This document shows positions 3,001 to 50,755 of a stretch of DNA of 64,000 nt, piece by piece. This stretch comes from a virus. Location: IMG/VR virus record IMGVR_UViG_3300025151_000031, positions 1 to 64,000 of that record. One strand, 5' to 3'. A program made the position numbers and the translations under genes. Each line of letters begins with the position of its first letter. Position 1 is the stretch's first letter. The notes under the pieces were generated by a model. It searched no databases. It was not told the origin of the DNA and worked only from the letters and a program-made list of their open reading frames with translations.

Positions 3001-6000
3001 AATAGAAGAGTATAAACAAATACTAAAACAAATAGAAGCTTCTAAAGATCCTACTGTAGATAATCAATTGCATGCGGCAACTATGTTACAATCTGCATCT
3101 AAATATACTCAGGTTATTGAAGAAATGTTACAAAAAATGTTTGAACTTCAAACAAAAGTAATAGAGCCTAAAGCAGAAGAAAGCAAAGATAATTCTAGAG
3201 AGAAACCTTCTACAAAAGAAAAGAATTTAAAAAATCCTATTAGTAGAAATATTGATGAAAAAGATATTAGAGAAAAGGGAACAAAATTTAAAAATGTAGG
3301 AGGTAAAATATATTATAGACCTGATATTTCAAATACAGGATTTTCAAAAACTGCAGGAAATCATTATCAAGCCTTAATAGATTATGAAGATTTATCTACA
3401 ACTGATAAAGAAGGAAATTTGATACCAAAAGAAGGTCTAAGTGAGCAGGATATAGCAAAAAGAAATAATGCTGAAGCTCAATTAGTATTCTATAAAACTA
3501 CAGAACAATTTTTAGAATTAAGAAAAGACAGTAAATCAAAGGTAGGATTAATGCCTGTAGTATCTTCTAATATACCTAATAATTTAAAAGAAGAATTAGG
3601 ATCCCCTATAGATCAGGGTTCAACACCAACTGTAAAAGTAACCTCAGAGTCTGAAAGAATAAAAGCATTAGATAAAACATTAAATAAAGAAGATAGAGGC
3701 TTTGTAGATTTAATGCGAAAAAGAAAAGGAAGAAGTCAAGAAATAATTAACCAAACAATAAAGCAAAAAGCTGGTAATACTGCAGCAGGTAATCAATTAT
3801 TAGAAAGGTATAAAGCTGAAGACACATTATCAAATCCAGAAGGAAAAAGAGAAGCCCAATTAATTTCTGCATTTAGTTTATTATATACAAATAAGTTTCA
3901 ACCAGTAAGCGCAATTGAACCTGTTTTAGATGGTGAATCTGGACGTGCAAGTAAAGTTGACCAAACTATTAGAGAATATGAAGCTTGGAAAACAAGTGGA
4001 ACTGGTGGTAAAAATGCATGGTATAATACAACTACTAAATTATTTGATAATACAGGAGATATGAGTAGTTCAGAAACTGCTGATATAAAGCTTGTTTTAG
4101 TTTATACTAGTGGTAATAGAAAAGGTACTCCTGTTAGAGTAAATAACTCAGGAAAAATATCTAAAGATGGTAAAGGTCGTATTGTATATACATCTATGAT
4201 GGACTCTGATTTTTATTTAAAAGATGAAAATGGAGATTATCTTGTAGATAAAAAAGGAAATAAATTACCACGGTTTACTAATAATAATAATTTAACTCAA
4301 ACTGTAATAGATGCTAAAATACAAGAGCATAAGGATCTTAGAGAAAGTCTTATAGAAGAAGCTGAAGAAGGTAAGAAAACAAATAGAATTTTTACTATAA
4401 CTAGCTATAACCCAGGAATGCCTAATGTAATGAGTAAAGATGGAGCTCCTCTTTTATTTCCTGTAAGAGGTAGAGCAGTAGGTAAAAAGAAATCTTTAAA
4501 AGATGTTGATATTAAGATTGCAAATATTGTTAATAATGATGGCACATCTAATATTACTGTTGGTGGTGTAATATATGATATACCTAAACCTGGTATGGTA
4601 TATACTGTTATAAATGGTAATTTAGCACCTTTAAAAGTTAGAAATTTAAATGATTCTGAAGTTGACAGCATAGTTAATATGCTTAGGTTATTTGAAAAGA
4701 ATATGGAGTTGTTACAAGCTCAAGGGATAACAGGTGAAGAACTTATATCTCGTGCAGCTGTTATAGAAGGAGCTGATGATGCTCTTCCTATATTTGAATA
4801 TTTACGTCATATAATATATTATGGTCCTAATACTAACTTAGAAGGATTTGATAAACGTTTTAGACTTTCCTTTAATAAAAATCGTAAAGGGTATGTATAT
4901 GGAGAAAATGGATTTATAAGTCAGGCACAATTAAAAGCAAATGATCCTGCAGCTATTGCAGATTTTAAAAACTTTTTACGTACTAAAACACATCAAATAT
5001 CTAAATTTGCTGTAGATAAATCGGTAACTAAGGCTAAAGGAAAAGAAACTGTTTATACACCTTTTGTAGAAGTTTCTCTTAATGACGATCTTACTATAAA
5101 AGAAAAGAAAGTTTGGGCTAATTATAAAGAATATCTTTTACAAGAAAGAGAGGATACTGATTTTGCCCCTCCTCTTCAAACTAGTATGAATGAAGCTGAC
5201 GGGGACTTTACTGCACCACAAACTAAGTATAGATATTTAAGATATACTGCTGGTAAAAAGCAACGTAGTACTTTACAATCTAATAATCCTATTCCTTCAG
5301 TAGAAGCTCCTGTAGGTAAATATGAATACGGAGAAGTTCAATCTGCATCTTTAGCAGAAGAAAAAAGAACTATTGCAGCATTAAAAAATAAACAAAAAGT
5401 AACTATTGAAAATAAAGATCTTGGAATTCCACAAATTGTAGATCCTACTAAAAAGGGGGCTGTTAAATCTCTTAATTCTGTATATGGATTATTTGATAGT
5501 TCAGCACCAGAATTAGAAGATATGACTATATCTAAGTATGTTTCTTTATTAGAAAAAGATCTTGATGAATATGAAAATGAATTCTATTCAGTTCCTTTTT
5601 CAGACTTTACATTTGTTAAAAGAAGACCAGATGCAGAACAGGCGTTAGAAAAAATTAAAATGAATACATCTAAGTCTAATTCTAAAGCTGCAGATCAAAT
5701 GAAAAAGAATCAAGAATTTGATGAAAGAACTGGTAGTGATAGAGATTTCTTAGATTTATTTAAAGATGCACAAAAAACAATATCTGAAGGAGTAGATGAA
5801 TATACTTCTAAAGATTTAAAAGATGAAGATTTTGATGATGATAATTTTGATGACGATTCAGTAGACGTTGCTAATTTAGATGTAAGAGGTATAGAAGGAG
5901 GAACAACTAGATTACAAGTAGAGTCTTCTGAAAGAAGTGTGGAAGAGGTAATGAAAGAGATTAAAAAAGCTAAGGAAATGATTCCTTGGGCTGATATTGA

Positions 6001-9000
6001 ATTAGTTACAGGCTTTATAAAAGGAAATACTCCTTTTGTAGTAGGCCAGTCTAGAGGTTGGGGTAGAATTCTTGTAAGTAATTTAGGTCCTTCAGGCGTA
6101 GTTTATCACGAAGCATATCACCAAGTATGGAGAAATGCTATTCCAGTAAAATTAAGAAAGGCTGCAACAAGATATGTTAATAATTTAGATGGTATAGGTC
6201 GTACTTTTCAAGGAAAGAAAAAAGACTTTTCAAAATTTAACTCTCTTGAAGTAGAAGAATATTTAGCAGAAGAATTTAGAAAGTGGATTATAACAGGAGG
6301 TAAATATAAAAGTGAAATATATTCTGCCAAAAAGAAAGGTATTATAGCAAATATTTTTGATCGTTTAAAAAGACTATTAAGAAATCTTTTAGGATTAGAT
6401 AGTAATCTTAGACCTTCAGATGATATGTTAGAAGTAGCTGAATTATTTCAAGGTATAGCTGCAGGTGACTATAGTCGTTTAACTGAAATGGATACTATAG
6501 CTATTAAAGATGCTGATCAAGATTTAAATGAAGTTAAATTATCATCGAGAGAAATTTTTGATAATGATAAAATAGCTAATATGGCACTACTTCCAGATAA
6601 TAGAAATGGAAGAAAAACTAGCGCAAGGTTTTCTATGGATGTATTAAGTACTCTTACTAGACATTTTGGAGAATCATTATTTGAAAATGAAATACCTTTA
6701 AAAAATATTACTACTAGAGATCTAGATAAATTTACAACTCCTGAGAAAAAAGCAGAATTTAATACTAAAATAGAAAATGCTTATATCGCTGCCATAAGAA
6801 ATATGGTAAAAGAGTTAGGAACACTGGGTAAATTAAAAAGAGAAGCATGGATTAAAACAGGAGAAAAGAATACTCAATTAGAAGAAGATTTAAAGCGTAT
6901 TATATATCTTCGTAATTACTTAAAGTCAAACTATAGAAACGTTATAGAAGGTCATAGATCGTATTTAAATACCTTAGGATTAGATATCTCTCAAACTTAT
7001 GATAGTTTGACAGATACTATGGATATTACAGAACTAGATCGTACAAAAGATGTATTTGGAATAATGGAATCTTTTGAGTTTTCTAGTATTGCTACAACTC
7101 ATCCTATGATGAAGTTAATGATCGGTACTCTTCCAGGTTCATTTAATACTACTCAAACAAAAGGAGTAGTAGATTTTAATGAGGCTATGAATTTCTTATT
7201 TGAAAAGTTACAAGGTACTACAGATCTTAAAAGTCAATTACTTATATTAGAATCTTTAAAAGATACAAAACCTTGGATACAATCTTTATTAAATAGACTT
7301 AATCCAGATCTTTCTGGAACTTCTAATTTTACTTATAGTGAATTAAAAATACATAACTTATTTAATCAGACATTTTCTAAAACAAAAAATGAGTTTTTAA
7401 CTCAGCTTATAGATGAAGACGGTAATATTTATAGTGTAGATGCTAATCAAACAACTGTTGCAAATTTAAAAGGTGGGCAGTGGCTTGCTAATCTTATGGG
7501 GAAATTGAATGAAAAGGGATTAGTGAAATTGGATAAAAAAGGAGAAGTAAAAATTGATTTGACTCATAAAATTAAATTTGAAAGTTTAAATCAAAAAATA
7601 TCTATACTTGATTTTAGATCTAATCCTAAATTAAAAAATTATTTTTCAGGTGCTGCAGGTATAGAGTTTTTACAAGCATTTGGTATAGAGTTTACTAATC
7701 CTGAAGCTATGCTAGCCTCAACAGAAGAAATAGACGGTAAAGCTATTCCAGATATAATAAATGAAGCAGCTCTATGGATTATTAATCAAATTAGTTTGGA
7801 CAGAAATGCTGCAAATATTTATGATCAGAATTCTTTAGATATAAAAACTAGACTAGGTAAATTAATAAAAGCAGAAATGCTTTTTAGTGATGATGTGATA
7901 GAACACAGACATTTTAATCCTGAAGGAAAACCTATATATGGTATTACTTTAAATACCTATATGAGTAAAATAGCTAATCAAATAACAAATGGTATTTTAC
8001 CTAAACATTTAGATCCTAATTTTAATCCTTATACAACTAACTCTATTGTAGTAAGACAATTACCTAAAGGAGGAATTGTTAAAATGCAAGTTATAGAAGG
8101 TTTAAGAATAAATAAAATGGGTGATCAAGGAACCCTATCTAAAAATTTAACTCCTGCAGATAGAATAGCTTCTAATTTAAATTCTGTATTAAAGAATGGT
8201 GTATTTCCTATACTTAGAACAGGTGATTTAGGGACAGAATTTGGAGTAAAACTTCCATTTAATACATTTAGAAATATTGATAGTGCTAAAAAAGAAATAT
8301 TAGGTTATATTTTAGATGAAATTTTAGTGTCTCAAAAATTAAATACAGAGGGATTAGGAAGCGATATAAATAAATTTAGAGAGGACGCTAAAGATTTAAG
8401 AGTGTTTAAAGACATTCTTGCTTTATCTGATAATGATCTATTTAAAAATAATTTAAAACGAGTTTTACAAGGAGAACAAGATGTTTCTGAATTTATGACT
8501 ACGCACGGTGATCATATGTTTGAAATGGTTAAATTCTATTTAGAAGATCAAGCATCTGAAACCATAAAAATTTGGACAGAAAATAGAATAGTAGATAGTA
8601 TTGATCGTGGTTATTTTGATAATAATGCAATAGATAATTCTATTATTCAAAATATTGTAGGAGATATTAAAAACAAACGTAAGCTTACTGATGCCCAGTT
8701 AATAAAAGTAGCAGAAGCATTTGTTATAAATGATTTTATTGCAAATACAGAACAATTGAAGATATTTTTTGGTGATCCTGCTCATTATAAAGCTTTTTAT
8801 AAAAGAACAAAGGGTGCTGCGGGTACAAAGAAATTTGCTAGATCAGATGTATTTATAGATGAATGGTTAAACAAAGAAGAAAATAAAAGAAGAGACAATA
8901 AAGTTGCAGACGGAACTGCTGAGGTAGTTGTTATGGAAGATCCAATGTCTGAAAGTGTATGGAGCACTGAATATGAAAGATACTTAGGAGATCCAGGAAG

Positions 9001-12000
9001 ATTATACAGAACAAATCCTGAAGCAGATGCAAATGCTTGGGCTAATATGCACTTTTATAGAGAACTTATGATTAGAGTTGGTGATTGGACAGATCAACAA
9101 GAAGATTTATATAAAAAGATGTTTGATCCTAATCAAGAAGACTTAACTATAGAAGAATTAACTGCGTTCCCTCCATTAAAACCACAGTATTTTGGACCTC
9201 AAGTAACAGGAGAGGCATTTAGTCCTATGTATATGATGAAGTTATCTTTAACTCCATTATTTCCACAAATGACTGTTATGAATGGGCAAAGAACGCAATT
9301 AGCGGATCTTATGGATGATATGAGTGATAAGCAAATTGATATTGTTTTACATCCATCAGGAGTTAAAGTTGGGCACAAGGTAACAGAAGAAGGTATAACC
9401 CCTCCTTTTTATAACGAACAAGGAGTTATTAATAAAATAGATCCTGACAGTGCCAGCACAATAGATTTATCTTACTTTGGGGTACAGTTAGATATTTCTC
9501 CAAAACCAAAATCTTTTTCTACTATAGGAACACAAGCACGTACACACATACTTGGTAATTTATATCACAATGGTGTTCCTAAAGATTATCCTGTAAATGC
9601 AGCTATTAGCTGGGATAATTTAAATGAAATTGAAAAAATAGCTGCAAGTCCTGTTCATGCTAAGGCAGTTAGATATACTCAATTAGTTAATGGATTTTCA
9701 GTCCAAGCCAGACAAAAAGTATTAGATAAATTTAATCTAATACAAGAAAATGGGAAATATAAACTTAAAGATGGAGACATGTCTAAGTTTATAGACTTTA
9801 TTCAAGCTGAAATAGCAAAAAGAAAATGGCCTGAAAATATAGCTGAAGGAGTTAATTGGTTATTATCTAGAAATGAGAACGAAAGAGTATTTGATATCTT
9901 AGTTAATAAAGGTATGATTGAAACTCTTTTATTTTCAACCATAGGTAAGTCTGCTATTGCCCAAAAGTTTAAAGGGGATTTAAAAGTTCAAGTATCATCT
10001 ACTGGATTTGAAGTAACAGCAAGGGCTGTTAAACAAAAAGATTTAAAAGGCAACTTTGGACTTGGAACAGGTACTTTAGAGTTTTATCATAAAGAAGATA
10101 CTAATGATCGTAACTCTAAAACTCTTGGAATGGAGGTATATATGCCGCATTATTTTAAAGAGTATTTTGGACAAGACATGGAGATTAGACCTGACGGCAT
10201 TTATAGTGCAGAAGGTGTAAAAGTTGGGGACAATTCTTTACTTGAAATAATAGGATTCCGTATTCCTACTGATGGATTGCATTCAATAGAATTTATAAAA
10301 GTAAAAGGGTTTTTACCAGAAGCTGCTGGACCTATGATTGTAGTCCCTTCTGAAATTACTGTAAAAGCAGGATCTGACTTTGATATTGATAAACTTACTT
10401 TATATTTCCCATCTTATAAAAGATTATTTGATGGTACAATTGTTAAAAGAAGATATATTGATGGAGACACTAACAATGATGAAGTATTAGAACAACTTTA
10501 TAATCAAGTATATGGCCCTACTATTAATTATGCTAAAGAGTTAGATAGAAGCTTAGCAGAAGCAGATAGAAATAAAGAAGGAGATGAGGTATATGACTCA
10601 TCTATAGAGGATTTAATGAAGGCTATGTTTGGTGAAGAAGCATTCCAAGATGCTACAGAATATACAGAAGCAGAGTTAGATGTATTATTAAAGCAATTTA
10701 AAGCAAATGAAAACTTAGATCCTAAAACAAGAGAAGATTTTGTTATAGATCAATATAAAAAATTAAAAGACAGATTAAAGTATATTCCATCAGTACAAGA
10801 ATATATTAAAGAAAATAAAGGAAAACCAGCAGCAGAATTAAATCATCCAGGAGCTGTCCAAAATGAAATAATGGACATAATGAAAGATGTATTATCTGAT
10901 CCTGATTCGTATGAACAATTATTGCATCCTATTGGAATTAAAAGATTAGGAGATGTAGCTGATGTTGTTAGAGCGGCTACAAATCAACCTATAAGATCTG
11001 AAAAAGATAATTTAGGATACGCAGAACTTATATCTTTTCCTAATAGACATAAAGTAAATACAGAACTTATGGTTGGTAAAAGAGGCTTAGGTATTGCTGC
11101 AGTAAATGCAACACACCAAGTAAAGAGCCAACTAGCTAATTTACATGTTCCACACAATAAAATAATAAACCATTTTGGAAATGAATTTAAAATAGGATTA
11201 CATTTTGAGGGATTTGAGTCTTCTAGTCAAGGTGGAGTAATTGATTTAGGGAGGATATATGATTCACAAGGAGAGAATATTAGCGAGGTTTTATCTGAAC
11301 TTGTAAATGCTTTTGCAGATGTATCAGAAGATCCTATAATATTAGATTTGAACTTAGTACAAGAAACAGCTTCTGCTGCATACTTTTTAATAAGAGCTGG
11401 CGTTCCAGTAGAAACTGTAGTTTTATTTTTAAATCAGCCTATTATAAAAGAATACATTCAAAGAAGAAATATAAATAATAGTAAATTTTTAAATGCAAGA
11501 GGTAAAGATGTACCTGTTCATGATTTAGTAGACTCTTTATTAAATAAATATGAAGCAGAAGGTATAGCTAAATTATCTAAAACTCCTACTATCTTTTCTC
11601 AAGATAGATTACAGTTAATGATGGGAAAAACTTTTGTGGAAATGAAAGCTAGTCAAGAAAATGCACAAGAAAAATATTTAGATGATCAGCTTCAAATTTT
11701 TAATCATTTTAGAATGTATGATGCTATAGGAACTAAGTTAACTCAATTAACTATAGGAACTTCTCATGATACTAAAGCAGCTAAAAATAGAAATCATGCT
11801 AAATTATTATTAGATAGAAGCGATGAAATTATTAGCTCAGAATATTTTGTAAATAGTAAAAAATTATTAGATAATACCCACTTAGGAGAATTCAGAAATA
11901 CAGTGGATACATCAAGCAAAATGTTTAATAATTTCTTTATTAGTGAATTAGCAGGAGTAAGGCATGTAGCACAATTAGATAAAATATTTGAAGTTTTTTC

Positions 12001-13837: not shown

Positions 13838-16800
13838 ATGGCATGTAGAGTAATAAGAGATAGCGCAGATAATGTAGTAGAAGTTTTTGCTCAAAACGGG
13901 CAACCTTCTTTACTTTTTCAAAGTTTAAAAGGCATTTTAGACAATAATGCTAATGATGCATATAAAGCATATTTAAAAACTAGAACCTCTAGTTTTAGAT
14001 CTAAATTTGCAGACTTTAATAATTTTGACGAAAATGGTGAATTTGCATTTGAAGCTAATCAACTACAAAGAGTCGTAGATGATTTAGGAAAAATTAAAAA
14101 GAAAGATATAAAATCTGAAACAGAACAAGCTATACAAAGCTATGATCTTATAGATGAAAACGGAAATCCTAGAGTTTTTAATAATCCACAAGTAGCTGCA
14201 GATATAGAGCAAAGAATTAAACAAGACTATCCTAATTTACAATTAAAATCTACTACAGTTGATAATAAAACTATACTTAAAGTAGGAGAAAATAGTCAAT
14301 TTGATGCTAATAATATTTTTTATCAACTTGAAAACGATGACTTAAGAGCTGCAAAAGACACGTTAGATTCTAAAATGAAATCTTTTCTATCTCATATAGG
14401 GGTAGATATTAAACTTGTAGACAGTTTAACAGATAGAAATGGTGAAGTGCTATCTGGAATAGCTAAAGCAGACATGTTAAGCAAAGTAATACAAGTCGTA
14501 GAAAACAAAGCTGATGTATCTACTCTCCCTGAAGAAGCAGCCCACTTTTTTGTAGAGATATTAAAATCTACAAACAATCCTTTATATAATTCAATGAATA
14601 ATCTAGTTGAAGGGTATGAACTTTTTGACAAAGTTGTAAGTGAGTATGGAAGTAATCCTATGTATCAAAATGAAGACGGGACTCCAAACATGGAAAAAAT
14701 AAGAGACGAGGCTATTGGTAAATTAATAGCAAGAGAAATAGTTGACCAACACAATAAAGATGAGGACATAGAGAAATTAGGAAGATTTAAAAGATGGTTT
14801 GCTAAGGTAATGAATGCTATTAAAAAGATGTTTGGGGGAGTATTTAAAAATCCATATCAAAGAGCAGCCTATCAAATGTTAAATACTTCTATTAAAGAGT
14901 ATAAAGATATTTCTAGGTCTATACAATCTACAGATCAATACTTACAACAAGAAAATCCTTCTACAGAAGTAGTTAAACCAGTAGGGCATAGTCAACAAGA
15001 TATTGTAGACTCTATTTTAAGAGATCATAACAATATAAAAATGAGAGCTATAGATAAAACAGATCTAAAGCTTAGTAAAGTGATTACAGAACAAGATGAC
15101 GACCTTACTATGAACATGTATGAGTATACTGATCCTGAAACGGGACAGACACATACAATATCTAAAAGGGTTAGTTTTAGAAATGCTGCAAACTTTGCAA
15201 GAAAGTTTAGATATGACATGGCTAAAATAAAAGAAATAAATGGCTCTGTACGATCTATTCATGCAAGAAATAATGGTACACACTTACACGGCGTTTCTCA
15301 AATGCTAGCAGAGTATTATGGTAGTAGATCTAATGCAAAATTTGTAGAAGTTATTGATACAAATGGCGAAGGAATAAAAAGTATTGGGGACATAAAAACA
15401 TTTGCAAATACTCAAATAAAAATAGGGGAAACTCCATTTAATAATTTAAAAAAGGGAGTTAGTAAGGTAATACAACAAATAAATAAAGAACAAGAAAGAA
15501 TAGATCCTAAAGGAAAAGCTAAAATATTAACAGAAGCTGTAGTATATGATAGATTAAACGATGAAGCGGGTACTATAGATTTACTAGTAGTATTTTCAGA
15601 TGGTTCTACAGGTATATTTGATTGGAAATTTATAGTTAATCCTGCTCCTAGATACAACGTACCAAAAAGATACGGGGATAAAACAAAGCTAGCAGATAAA
15701 GCTATATTTGAATCTAAAATGGATGGGTGGAATACTCAAATATCAGCATATAAACAAATGCTAAGTAAAATACATGGATCTAAAAAAGTTAGATTTACAC
15801 GTATAATACCTGCGCATGCACAATTTGCAGTAAAAAACTATATGAAAAAGGATTTTACTCCAATAAATAAGGTGGAAGCTATTATGATGGGAAGGGACCA
15901 AAATGAAATACTGGACCAGATCTCAGTAGCATTAGAGCAAACTGATTATAAAGGAATAAATAAATTACTTGAAAAATTTTACGATAAAAGAAGAAACCTT
16001 AAGATACAACTAAGAAATGTAAAAGGTAAAAAGAAAGTAAAGTTTGAAAAGCTTAGATCTGAAGCAGCTAAAGTTGAGCAGACTATACAAGCTTTAACTG
16101 TACAAAGAAATGTAATGGATGTAATTTTAAATGCGGGTAGAAGAATAGCATTAATTGGAGATAAAGTTGGAATTAGTGATCCTACTCATCCAGATTATTT
16201 AGAATTAGATGATTTAGTTGACGCATTAGAAGATTTGGCTACTTTTGAAGAGTTAGCTGCTAACACTGCAATCTATTTAAAAGATTTAAGATCTAGTAAA
16301 GATGCAGAAATAAGAAAATCTGCTGCTGCCATACAAAAAGCCGTAGACAGAGCTACTGGTATTATAGAACGTAACGTTGAAGTTATAAAACAAGGAATGT
16401 TTGACAGGCTAACTACGAAAGCTGATAAAATGGATGGAGAAGATCTTACAGAATCCCCAAAAGAATTAGGGTTTTTTGATCGTAATGGTAGACAAATGAG
16501 TCAAATGCCTCATCCTATATTTAGAGTAGGTTATAATCGTATATTAAAATCTTTTAATAAAATTAAAGGAGCTACAGAAGGGTTGAAAGGAGAAGAAGAT
16601 GAACCTGGAACTATAATGCATGAACTAAAACTTTTAAAAAATTGGAGCAAATCTAAATACGGTAAAGAAAGTTTACAAAAAGCTTATCGTATGATGATTA
16701 AAGATAATATTGTAAAAGATGAAAAAGGAAAAGAAACTATATTATCTAGAACATTAGCTGCTAAATTTGGTTCTGATTTTTATCAATCAGTAAGACAAAA

Positions 16801-37600: not shown

Positions 37601-37673
37601 GATGGCTAGTCAGCGTTATCGCAAGCGTAATAATAATTACTGCTTTGTTGTTGCCTTTGCTGACTAGACCATC
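37601..37673. ncRNA. Long-stem hairpin element (14 bp closing stem)
   Basis: GATGG-CTAGTCAGC (37601-37614) pairs with GCTGACTAG-A-CCATC (37659-37673), 14 bp with one bulged A. Inside is a second hairpin, AAGC-GTAAT/ATTAC-T-GCTT with an AATA loop (about 37622-37644). One of the strongest folds in the window. Strand unknown; minus is likely from the neighbouring genes. Confidence 0.55.
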
Positions 37674-37726: not shown

Positions 37727-38020
37727 TTAGGCTGGAACAATGTCGTGCAGGATCTCTGATCCTTCCACGGCTTTGCCAAATTTAATACCTTGACACGGAG
37801 TGCCAAGTTTAAATGCTTCTTTGATGGCATCGAAGATGTCTTCATTGAAGTCCACTAACTTGAACCAACCCATTTTGGTTGGTGATTGACCATTTGAAGT
37901 TGTGGCTTTGAAGCCATTTACTTCAAATTCTTTGGACGTTAAAGGAACATCGGCAACGACGATTGTGCCTTTGGTCCAATTTATTTTGGTTACGTAAAGT
38001 TTTTTCTGTGTTCTTGACAT
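37727..38020 (-). CDS. Hypothetical protein, own transcription unit (97 aa)
   Basis: No family recognised. Beta-rich: LYVTKINWTKGTIVVADVPLTSKEFEVNGFKATT, then GWFKLVDFNEDIFDAIKEAF and GIKFGKAVEGSEIL. Base composition is visibly richer in G and C than the surrounding early genes, and it has its own strong terminator (37691-37717), both typical of a highly expressed gene. It is the first gene reading leftward from the divergent region. Confidence 0.6.
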   Translation of the reverse strand: MSRTQKKLYVTKINWTKGTIVVADVPLTSKEFEVNGFKATTSNGQSPTKMGWFKLVDFNEDIFDAIKEAFKLGTPCQGIKFGKAVEGSEILHDIVPA

Positions 38021-38296
38021 AGTAAAAAGTTTTTTGATTAATTAATTGATACCTCGGGGTACCTTGAATAACAATTATCGGTAGGGGTGATTCTCTAAAT
38101 ACCCTCACACGCTCAAAGATTCTCCACAAAAAAAAATTTTTTTCCCCAAAATTTTTTTAACAATTTATTAACATTGTTTTAATATTAATGTAATATTAGT
38201 TTTTTATATTTGAATATGAGAATAGATGTAACTCCTTATTTATACATTTTAATACTTTTATTTGTTTATATACTAGGAATTGTTTAATATTGCATA
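38021..38296. promoter_or_regulatory. Divergent intergenic control region
   Basis: Separates leftward early genes from rightward genes. Holds a TACC-TCGG-GGTA mini-hairpin near 38050, A9/T7 and T7 tracts at 38129-38159, and a plus-strand TATATTTG box at 38205-38212 that fits a promoter for the 44-aa gene. The long A/T tracts flanked by CCCC could be an easily melted or bent site, even an origin, but there are no iterated boxes to support that. Confidence 0.45.
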
Positions 38297-38431
38297 ATGG
38301 CAAAATTAAATTCATTTAAATTTTTAGGAAGTAGCAGTAAAAAAAGACCTGGTATTCACGCCAAGTCCAAAACCTCTAAATTAACATCTTCAAAAAATTA
38401 TTTTAAAAAATATAGAGGCCAAGGCAGATAA
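38297..38431 (+). CDS. Small basic conserved-type phage peptide (44 aa)
   Basis: Frame MAKLNSFKFLGSSSKKRPG..., ending NYFKKYRGQGR. The RPGIHAKSKTSKLTSSKNY...YRGQGR layout recurs, from memory, as a very short Lys/Ser-rich protein in Bacteroidota and marine phages; function is unknown. About a third of residues are Lys or Arg, so nucleic-acid binding or packaging with DNA is plausible. It is the first rightward gene. Confidence 0.65.
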   Translation: MAKLNSFKFLGSSSKKRPGIHAKSKTSKLTSSKNYFKKYRGQGR

Positions 38432-38446
38432 TTTAAATTATTTTAT

Positions 38447-38454
38447 TATATTTG
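38447..38454 (+). promoter_or_regulatory. Bacteroidota-type -7 box before the large ncRNA candidate
   Basis: TATATTTG matches TAnnTTTG and is followed by CTGCGGAGTC, the start of the structured region. The same eight bases sit on the minus strand at 34357-34364. No clear -33 element. Confidence 0.45.
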
Positions 38455-38690
38455 CTGCGGAGTCTTAGATCACCCCAGAGGGCGAAAGTAGTTATGGGGT
38501 CAGAAGTTGGGTTTACGAACTAATCTAATTAGTCACGGTTGTCCCCAATAACTCCACAAATTGCTTTGATATAAAACTTAGGTGGGAATCATACTATAGG
38601 CTGACAGAAACGTACCCACGAAGGCTAAAAACGGTAAGTAGAAATTCAAAGTTAAACTATTCCACTAGGGGAGAGGTATATCCAAAAATT
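38455..38690 (+). ncRNA. Large structured RNA candidate, about 230 nt
   Basis: No ORF, and richer in G and C than its flanks. Paired segments visible: AGTTAT-GGGG (38490-38499) with CCCC-A-ATAACT (38543-38553); hairpin ACTAAT-CTA-ATTAGT (38519-38533); GTGGG (38582-38586) with CCCAC (38615-38619); GGAGT (38459-38463) with ACTCC (38551-38555), which competes with the first helix. Rich in unpaired purine stretches (GGCGAAAGTAG, GACAGAAAC). It does not match what I know of tmRNA, RNase P, SRP, 6S, group I introns or common riboswitches. Confidence 0.6.
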
Positions 38691-38708: not shown

Positions 38709-38741
38709 TTTGTTTTTATAAAATTTTTTTTTATAAATTTG
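38709..38741 (+). promoter_or_regulatory. Probable promoter for the GroES-like gene
   Basis: TTTG (38709-38712), 21-nt spacer, TAAATTTG (38734-38741), matching the Bacteroidota TTTG / TAnnTTTG arrangement. Start codon 20 nt beyond. The surrounding tract is nearly all A/T. Confidence 0.5.
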
Positions 38742-38761
38742 TATAAACTAATTTATACATT

Positions 38762-39037
38762 ATGGCAAAGAAAATAAATTTTAAACCTTATGGAGCATGG
38801 ATGTTGCTCCCAAATCCCGCAAAAAGAAAAACAGATTCTGGTATTATTTTAGATGAAAAGACAGCAGGAGCTATAACTACGAACATTTTAGAAGTTTTAG
38901 CTATGGGACCTGATTGTACTTTCTGTAAAATTGGTGATACTGTAATGGTAGATCCCACAATAGAAGCAAGAGTATTACATTTAGATGAGGGAGAATTTAT
39001 ACTAGTAGCAGAATATCAGATATTAGGTAAATTTTAA
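38762..39037 (+). CDS. GroES-like co-chaperonin (91 aa)
   Basis: Length and pattern fit the Cpn10 family: N-terminal INFKPYGAWMLLPNP (cellular: ..PL.DRVLV), mobile-loop region KRKTDSGIILDE, then NILEVLAMGPDC..CKIGDTVMVDP and ending EFILVAEYQILGKF. Phage co-chaperonins such as T4 gp31 replace GroES to let GroEL fold the capsid protein. The first rightward gene after the ncRNA fits a role in virion protein folding. The mobile-loop length looks standard. Confidence 0.8.
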   Translation: MAKKINFKPYGAWMLLPNPAKRKTDSGIILDEKTAGAITTNILEVLAMGPDCTFCKIGDTVMVDPTIEARVLHLDEGEFILVAEYQILGKF

Positions 39038-49300: not shown

Positions 49301-50755
49301 ATGGCATTACAACAAACAGGTAAGAACATTAGCGTCCATAAGACGTTTTATAATGATCAACAAATGACAGACATGAATAGTCTGGCAAACGCCTTGATGT
49401 CTAAGCCTACTGAATTATCTCCAATTATCACACACTTGGCTGGTAAAGACGACAAAAGATTTCCTCTATCATTCTTGACGGAAGGGGTTGGAAACGTTAA
49501 GTCAATGGATAGATTGGAATATGAATATCGTGTTAAAACTCATCGTAGAAAAACACGACCAGTACAGGTGGCATTAAGCGGATCGAATGTAGGGCTAGGA
49601 GGCTCCGCATTTGAATTAATCTTTCCAGATAAATGGTTTGTGTTCCCATACGTACTTGTAAACTCAAAAGGTGAACTTGCACGTATAATGAAGGAACCTA
49701 CTCCAGTATCGGATCAAGGTTACAAATATACGTTACAATTAGTTAACCCATCTCCTACAGCTACTCTAACAGGTGGTTATGAAGTAGGTGATCTTTGGGC
49801 GCAATTGTACGCTCCAGTAGGAGTTGATTTCTCTAGAGGAAACGCTTCAAACTGGGAATCTCCAGGAATGGTACGAAACAAAATTGGTACTGTAAGAAAA
49901 TCTTATCACATGTCTGGTCACGCGCGAGATTATGTTGCTGAGTTTAACTTACCTACTAAAGGAGGAAAGACTACCAAACTTTGGATGGATTATGAAGAAT
50001 ATCAACACATGCTTGATTTTAAAGAAGAATGTGAAATGTTCTACTGGTACGGTCAAAAAACTTATAACAATGCAGGTAACACTGCAATGAAAGATGAGAA
50101 TGGTCAGCCAGTTATCGTTGGTCCTGGGCTCTTAGAGCAAATAGTAAATAAGGAAACTTATTCTTCTATGACAGAAACAAAGATCAAAAATATTATTGGA
50201 GATCTTTTCTACGGGATGACCGATTCTCAAAACAAACAAGTTACGCTTTACACAGGAACAGGTGGTATGCGTGAATTTGATGAAGCTTTAAAAGGACACT
50301 TTCAGAATACTACTACTAACGGGTGGAAAACTGGAGGAGAAAATAGATTCATCACAGGTTCAGGCAGAAACTTGGGAATGACAGGGTACTTTACTTCTTA
50401 TGAGCACATTGATGGACATGTAGTAAATGTAGTTAAACTACCTTTATTTGATCATGGTCCTGTTGCTCAGGCAAGAGATAAGCACCCTACTACTGGATTC
50501 TCACTTGAATCATACAGAATGGTATTTGTTGATCAGTCTAACTATGACGGTCAAGCAAACCTTCAAATGCTTTCTAAAAAAGGAAGAGAAATGATGAGAT
50601 GGTGTGTAGCTGGTAGTGTGGTACCTAGAGGATTTGATGCAGGATCTGCAAGAGCTTCTGATGTTGACGGTGCGTCCGTTCACATGTTAAAAACAGGAGG
50701 TATTGTATTGAAGAGATTTGACACTTCTCTAGATATCGAATGTGTAGCGTCATAG
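49301..50755 (+). CDS. Major capsid protein (484 aa)
   Basis: crAss-type HK97-fold capsid protein: MALQQTGKNISVHKTFYNDQQMTDM, PTELSPIITHLAGKDDKRFPLSFLTEG, RRKTRPVQVA, and the C-terminal VDQSNYDGQANLQMLSKKGREMMRWCVAGSVVPRGF. Codon use is visibly richer in G and C than in neighbouring genes, as expected for the most expressed virion gene. Followed by a 162-nt region with three hairpins. N-terminal processing is not obvious. Confidence 0.92.
   Translation: MALQQTGKNISVHKTFYNDQQMTDMNSLANALMSKPTELSPIITHLAGKDDKRFPLSFLTEGVGNVKSMDRLEYEYRVKTHRRKTRPVQVALSGSNVGLGGSAFELIFPDKWFVFPYVLVNSKGELARIMKEPTPVSDQGYKYTLQLVNPSPTATLTGGYEVGDLWAQLYAPVGVDFSRGNASNWESPGMVRNKIGTVRKSYHMSGHARDYVAEFNLPTKGGKTTKLWMDYEEYQHMLDFKEECEMFYWYGQKTYNNAGNTAMKDENGQPVIVGPGLLEQIVNKETYSSMTETKIKNIIGDLFYGMTDSQNKQVTLYTGTGGMREFDEALKGHFQNTTTNGWKTGGENRFITGSGRNLGMTGYFTSYEHIDGHVVNVVKLPLFDHGPVAQARDKHPTTGFSLESYRMVFVDQSNYDGQANLQMLSKKGREMMRWCVAGSVVPRGFDAGSARASDVDGASVHMLKTGGIVLKRFDTSLDIECVAS

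Follow-up and report, generated by a model that had tools for sequence, protein, structure and literature searches.

We analysed a stretch of viral DNA of 64,000 nucleotides (nt; positions 1 to 64,000 of the 67,298-base IMG/VR virus record IMGVR_UViG_3300025151_000031), here called the window. The phage is crAss-like: the window encodes a major capsid protein (PF23898) at 49301–50755 and, as assigned with PHROG, a portal protein and a large terminase, the latter of ordinary type (PHROG 6681). At about 38 kb, gene direction and GC skew both switch, and on the plus side of this divergent junction lies a structured RNA of about 225 nt. An earlier note, made from the sequence alone, had proposed a large, unrecognised structured RNA here, and covariation, a conserved position, a promoter box and the lack of an Rfam match all bear this out. 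The limits given then (38447–38690) are slightly too wide, the RNA being best placed at 38459–38683. The region is non-coding and, as had been remarked, richer in G and C than its surroundings (40%, versus 24% in the 200-nt flanks on either side), a content equalled in only 2.2% of window stretches of the same size. The RNA has two domains, a multi-helix junction formed by helices P1 to P4 (four-way where hairpin P2 is present; P2 is missing in the window's clade) followed by the stacked helices P5, P6 and P7. Its parts are as follows.

38447–38454, plus strand: −7 box TATATTTG (TAnnTTTG, Bacteroidota primary sigma), 4 nt before P1
38459–38683, plus strand: the structured RNA, about 225 nt; the 3′ limit is the last conserved motif (AGGGG..TATATCC), not a mapped end
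38459–38463, plus strand: P1 5′ strand GGAGT, closing the multi-helix junction; partner 38551–38555
38472–38476, plus strand: P3 5′ strand ACCCC; partner 38496–38500; its inner pair exchanges among C-G, U-A and A-U
38496–38500, plus strand: P3 3′ strand GGGGT, from comparative pairing counts
38506–38511, plus strand: P4 5′ strand GTTGGG, enclosing the variable hairpin P4b; partner 38544–38549
38517–38534, plus strand: hairpin P4b (helix 6), variable in sequence, with strong covariation across the family
38544–38549, plus strand: P4 3′ strand CCCAAT, from comparative pairing counts
38551–38555, plus strand: P1 3′ strand ACTCC, pairing with 38459–38463
38564–38569, plus strand: P5 5′ strand CTTTGA, opening domain 2; partner 38646–38651
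38576–38580, plus strand: P6 5′ strand ACTTA; partner 38635–38639
38582–38586, plus strand: P7 5′ strand GTGGG; partner 38615–38619
38615–38619, plus strand: P7 3′ strand CCCAC, from the domain 2 alignment count
38635–38639, plus strand: P6 3′ strand TAAGT, from the same count
38646–38651, plus strand: P5 3′ strand TCAAAG, from the same count
38667–38683, plus strand: conserved 3′ motif (AAGGGG-N-TRTATCC in the family)

Folding energy gives no sign of this structure. The minimum free energy of the RNA is no better than that of shuffled sequences (z = +0.54 in the window, −0.81 in relative L016), which is what a chance structure, or conservation acting purely at the level of DNA, would predict; energy folding and the missing Rfam match, taken alone, would have left the claim of structure weak. 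The loci of relatives were reached through their GroES-like proteins; close relatives are 86–92% identical in DNA at the RNA locus, and a second clade is recognisably the same. A pattern drawn from the most conserved stretch matched 75 virus contigs, and a looser pattern brought in two further, divergent members (L089 and L090) together with two unrelated chance matches. A single fold accommodates all copies: a junction closed by P1, with hairpins P2, P3 and P4. In particular, P1, detected by simple complementarity without alignment or model, has five of five pairs intact in 53/53 phage copies through about ten sequence versions, including GGAGT/ACTCC, GAAGC/GCTTC, ACTTG/CAAGT, CAATC/GATTG and GTTAC/GTAAC.

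A covariance model, R1, recovers every copy searched, and R2 is a broader model; the tool itself describes the E-values of both as rough, but judged by model scores there is little doubt about the membership of the sequences used. Among 45 distinct rows, in an alignment fitted to the model and so biased towards it, 98.4% of cells are paired and 21 of 27 pairs have changed on both sides, compared with 34–48% paired in slid controls. A second alignment with the same bias, of 32 more divergent rows that include bacterial copies, has 96.4% of cells paired (slid controls, 32–46%), again 21 of 27 pairs changed on both sides, and a covariation score of 0.673 versus at most 0.117 when slid. For domain 2 the counts come from MAFFT alignments made without the model, with 99.6% pairing and double changes in 10/16 pairs in clade A, and 98.0% and 9/21 in clade B; P5, P6 and P7 are common to both versions of the domain, and extra hairpins occur in B. 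P5 covaries as CTTTGA/TCAAAG, TTTTGA/TCAAAA, CGTTGG/CCAACG and CCTTAG/CTAAGG, and P7 as GTGGG/CCCAC, GTAGG/CCTAC and TTGGG/CCCAA. Because G-U cells far outnumber A-C cells (61 to 3), it is the plus strand that is the folded RNA. For practical purposes, an unbroken P1, the collapse of pairing in slid controls and this G-U excess refute both a structure due to chance and conservation at the DNA level alone. The comparative evidence is thus decisive that the RNA fold is conserved by evolution, and the RNA very probably does a job not yet described.

Outside the helices, the long unpaired stretches ATCA, AGAGGG, TAGTTA and AGA are invariant. A small hairpin overlapping the 5′ side of the 3′ motif was found by a loose scan in 31/45 tails, and we regard it as probable from these sequences. 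In some clades only, the 3′ motif in part (GGGGAACCTG) and likewise GGATCACC may resemble the 3′ end of 16S rRNA. Pairing between GATATA of domain 2 and the TATATC of the 3′ motif, judged by eye, gave a mixture of intact and broken cases, and we make no claim for it.

The several helices described by the earlier note are real by comparative evidence, although this does not hold for every helix that energy folding suggests. Two of them had been said to compete for 38551–38555, as a possible switch. Both exist in the window, where ACTCC can pair with GGAGT of P1 or partly with AGTTAT (the AGTTAT/ATAACT helix), but only P1 is kept by compensatory change. AGTTAT is near-invariant and its would-be partner changes along with the other strand of P1; many divergent members lose outer pairs of the rival helix, but P1 is preserved in every phage row. 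In some members the rival helix is likely to arise incidentally from the conserved ATA that precedes P1. Thus, where a riboswitch would be expected to have mutually exclusive conserved helices, the sole proposed competitor of P1 shows no covariation, and different genes stand 3′ of the RNA, unlike the case of a riboswitch; the idea of a switch is not upheld. A switch that controls the neighbouring gene would find some support in the place of this gene beside the RNA in most relatives, as in the window:

38710–38741, plus strand: promoter TTG-N21-TAAATTTG of the GroES-like gene, separate from that of the RNA
38762–39037, plus strand: GroES-like co-chaperonin gene, 91 amino acids (aa; PHROG 3188, E 2.6e-9), a neighbour outside the RNA

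A riboswitch or thermosensor for this gene is extremely unlikely, however, given that the gene's own promoter lies 3′ of the RNA, that other phages carry unrelated genes directly 3′ rather than one constant downstream gene, and that the competing helix lacks covariation.

For the primary sigma factor of Bacteroidota, the recognised elements are TAnnTTTG at −7 and TTTG near −33 (PMC7366714). The box that the earlier note had seen before the RNA is present in the window, and a −7 box with at most one mismatch lies 4–8 nt before P1 in 48/53 phage copies. Among the five copies without it, one contig is cut at that point and three have an open reading frame (ORF) that reaches P1. On the other side of the RNA, the promoter of the GroES-like gene (TTG-N20/21-TAnnTTTG) follows after about 25 nt in almost every relative that lacks an insert. 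Inserted ORFs, where present, start 4–50 nt after the RNA and differ in kind among phages; the genes directly 3′ are mutually unrelated, encoding a PAS histidine kinase (L033), a SET protein (L049), a small membrane protein (L010 and L017) and others. (The kinase gene, at L033:4427-5656, was assigned with Pfam in L033 only, and ORFs of the same length occur in L050, L058 and L082; the SET-domain gene, at L049:945-1298, is immediately 3′ of the RNA.) Because the GroES-like gene has its own promoter and the neighbours vary, the RNA is a unit independent of them. In three bacterial copies, moreover, an AACCTCG/CGAGGTT hairpin with a U-rich tail, terminator-like, lies about 45 nt after the 3′ motif. 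Taken together, the arrangement looks like that of a discrete RNA gene.

The same arrangement can be read in another way, as a cis-acting leader whose nascent RNA modifies its own RNA polymerase or stabilises the long mRNA of the structural genes. There is a model for the former in the put RNA of phage HK022, a structured leader near a promoter that brings about processive antitermination in cis at early operons. The RNA described here shares with put that it is a structured phage RNA near a promoter; it would be transcribed first at the head of the structural block, whatever gene follows, and in the window no terminator was found between it and the operon. But operon transcripts need not include the RNA, since the GroES-like gene has its own promoter, and a terminator-like hairpin follows some of the bacterial copies. 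The put RNA is also far smaller, and our RNA, in single copy and with two domains, occurs on bacterial elements as well. We consider a cis-acting leader possible but doubtful.

The earlier note had proposed a comparison with crAss-like relatives, and across these the fold is kept in divergent copies. One strong copy was found in each of 19/19 large related phage contigs, and the crAss capsid gene in 22/23 RNA-bearing virus records tested, the exception being a 13.5-kb fragment. When records were compared by coordinates, the capsid gene lay about 10–18 kb downstream of the RNA in the same direction; the position of the RNA in phages is fixed, at the head of the structural-gene block. No convincing copy was detected in five phages searched with R1 or in fifteen named genomes searched with R2, 13 of which are classified in Crassvirales (including crAss001, DAC15, phi14:2 and ProJPt-Bp1); a match in phi14:2 (14.9 bits, E 0.26), within an RNA polymerase associated gene, was taken as chance. 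At the sensitivity used, these searches indicate that the RNA is confined to some crAss-like lineages, outside the gut and cultured ones tested.

Copies were also found in bacteria. A scan of bacterial genome contigs turned up a Polaribacter contig of 2.3 Mb and two metagenome-assembled genomes (MAGs), one of Flavobacteriaceae and one of Chitinophaga (R1 scores, 65–68 bits), and a copy was present in 5/397 Flavobacteriaceae genomes, in 2/395 of a class-level set and in 1/395 of a phylum-level set, each count including the seed genome. The crAss capsid was not recognised in any of the 8 RNA-bearing bacterial genomes, in a scan in which no positive control gave a signal; the capsid model used had detected 22 virus records in a separate scan. 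The RNA of Polaribacter (L116) has a copy of tRNA-Met on either side (5218–5291 and 11913–11986), with an integrase at 5344–6387. That of L117 is flanked by tRNA-Met and, at the other end, by a partial copy of this tRNA gene, the repeat being 61 bp long (8719–8779 and 14858–14918); an integrase is again present, and the two integrases are 42% identical. L116 and L117 thus have the integrase and duplicated tRNA attachment site of integrative elements, 6–7 kb long, features that are not specific to satellites. The sequence of the tRNA-Met 3′ end near the RNA is common to L111, L112, L114 and L117. Two small ORFs, of 64 aa and 60–70 aa (the latter helix-turn-helix/excisionase-like), come after the RNA in L104, L106 and L107, as parts of a conserved unit that measures about 1.1 kb. 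Integron cassettes were considered as carriers and rejected, the inspected repeats being tRNA genes, integrase ends and the starts of surface-protein genes. Next to the RNA-bearing unit of L111, L112 and L113, one stretch of 40–50 bp (AAGCTTTAAAAACAGTTTTGTACATTGTATTGATAAAT) recurs several times as the start of genes, which may mark a recombination hotspot. Some RNA-bearing bacterial elements encode surface proteins that have DUF285-type repeats (L117:10400-12184 and L118:2747-5374; Pfam, L117 only), and such repeats also occur in phage protein families. The crAss-like phages and the integrative elements of Bacteroidota are linked by a shared RNA and not by a shared protein.

This link raises the question of whether the elements exploit the phages. 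The RNA or its DNA could serve replication, late expression or packaging, so that tRNA-integrated elements are helped by crAss-like phages; one fold is found both in these phages and in small elements with integrase and tRNA, in genomes without a detected crAss capsid, and the RNA sits where gene direction and GC skew switch. Yet helper and element were never seen co-resident, scans of the elements recognised no packaging or capsid gene, and neither relatives of the element integrases nor the element-type RNA were found in viral contigs. We judge such a signal unlikely, and we would say the same of the more specific proposal that crAss-like phages and a family of tRNA-integrated satellites of Flavobacteriaceae meet through this RNA, the phage needing it for late expression, replication or packaging and the satellites carrying it so as to be served by the phage. 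Also suggested by a bacterial copy, that of L116, which has a homing-endonuclease-like ORF on its 3′ side, is a ribozyme or intron-like mobile RNA. No interrupted gene was seen at the inspected loci, however, no Rfam model of a group I or group II intron or of a ribozyme matched, the position in phages is single and fixed, and no endonuclease stands beside other copies, which makes a mobile RNA very unlikely.

The reading that we prefer, and to which we give an even chance on the basis of the sequence comparisons, is that the locus holds an independent gene whose product, a structured RNA of about 225 nt, acts in trans. The primary polymerase of the host would transcribe this gene into a discrete RNA; the long unpaired stretches that do not vary may bind protein or RNA, and the RNA would act in trans on a component of the host's transcription, translation or defence machinery. 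Engaging such a component would benefit phages and capsid-less elements alike; because both share the RNA, a host component is its most likely partner. Several observations weigh against this reading. In L029, L030 and L073 an upstream ORF immediately precedes the RNA, and no promoter box separates the two; in several phages the ORFs that start so close to its 3′ side mean that read-through must occur there; no plus-strand terminator was found near the RNA of the window; and the argument for a host partner draws on distribution only.

The RNA family is new, in that it is unmatched in Rfam 15 and unreported in the papers searched; structured phage RNAs as a loose kind have precedents. The Rfam search that the earlier note had suggested yielded no match in the window at gathering thresholds, and none in seven divergent relatives except for one unrelated tRNA match; relaxed matches in the window (E 1.6 or worse) and elsewhere were at chance level. 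ARAGORN recognised no tRNA or transfer-messenger RNA (tmRNA) fold in the window, and BLASTN comparison of the RNAs of the window, phage clade B and the elements with phage and plasmid records gave chance matches or none. No description was found in the open-access papers searched, and one outside open access remains possible. As a separate observation, L014:3317-3474 (minus strand) has an Rfam tRNA match over 158 bases that ARAGORN did not call, perhaps a tRNA with a large insertion.

Among known systems, GOLLD and ROOL are large ornate structured RNAs of phages and mobile elements whose role is undescribed, and their structures are reportedly given in PMC12286853. Like them, the RNA described here is structured and phage-associated; they are several times larger and have Rfam models, none of which matched it. 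The pRNA of phi29, similarly, comes from a small phage RNA gene of its own and has a multi-helix junction, but the junction here is a different one and is followed by a second domain, no Rfam model is matched, and the phage has its ordinary large terminase. Within the same phylum, the 6S RNA and tmRNA of Bacteroidota are likewise discrete structured RNAs (PMC7366714), from which this RNA is set apart by the Rfam and ARAGORN results. What it adds is a conserved non-coding gene for a phage group known almost only from its proteins.

The flanks of the RNA have further features. On the minus strand, the divergent leader at 38020–38130, which is 67–74% alike among relatives, has a possible small hairpin (GGTACC-CCGA-GGTATC, and in L005 TACCC-TAGC-GGGTA) and is possibly a second RNA element, belonging to the opposite operon. 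Further away, at 37602–37672, an inverted repeat is formed by the arms ATGGCTAGTCAGC and GCTGACTAGACCAT, with a terminator-like AGAGGTGT/ACACCTCT hairpin immediately beyond it. Just upstream of the RNA, at 38297–38431, the window has a basic ORF of 44 aa (MAKLNSFKFLGSSSKKRPGIHAKSKTS...); an ORF of equal length is found at this position in L048 and L056, whereas most relatives have in its place an ORF for a membrane peptide of about 24 aa.
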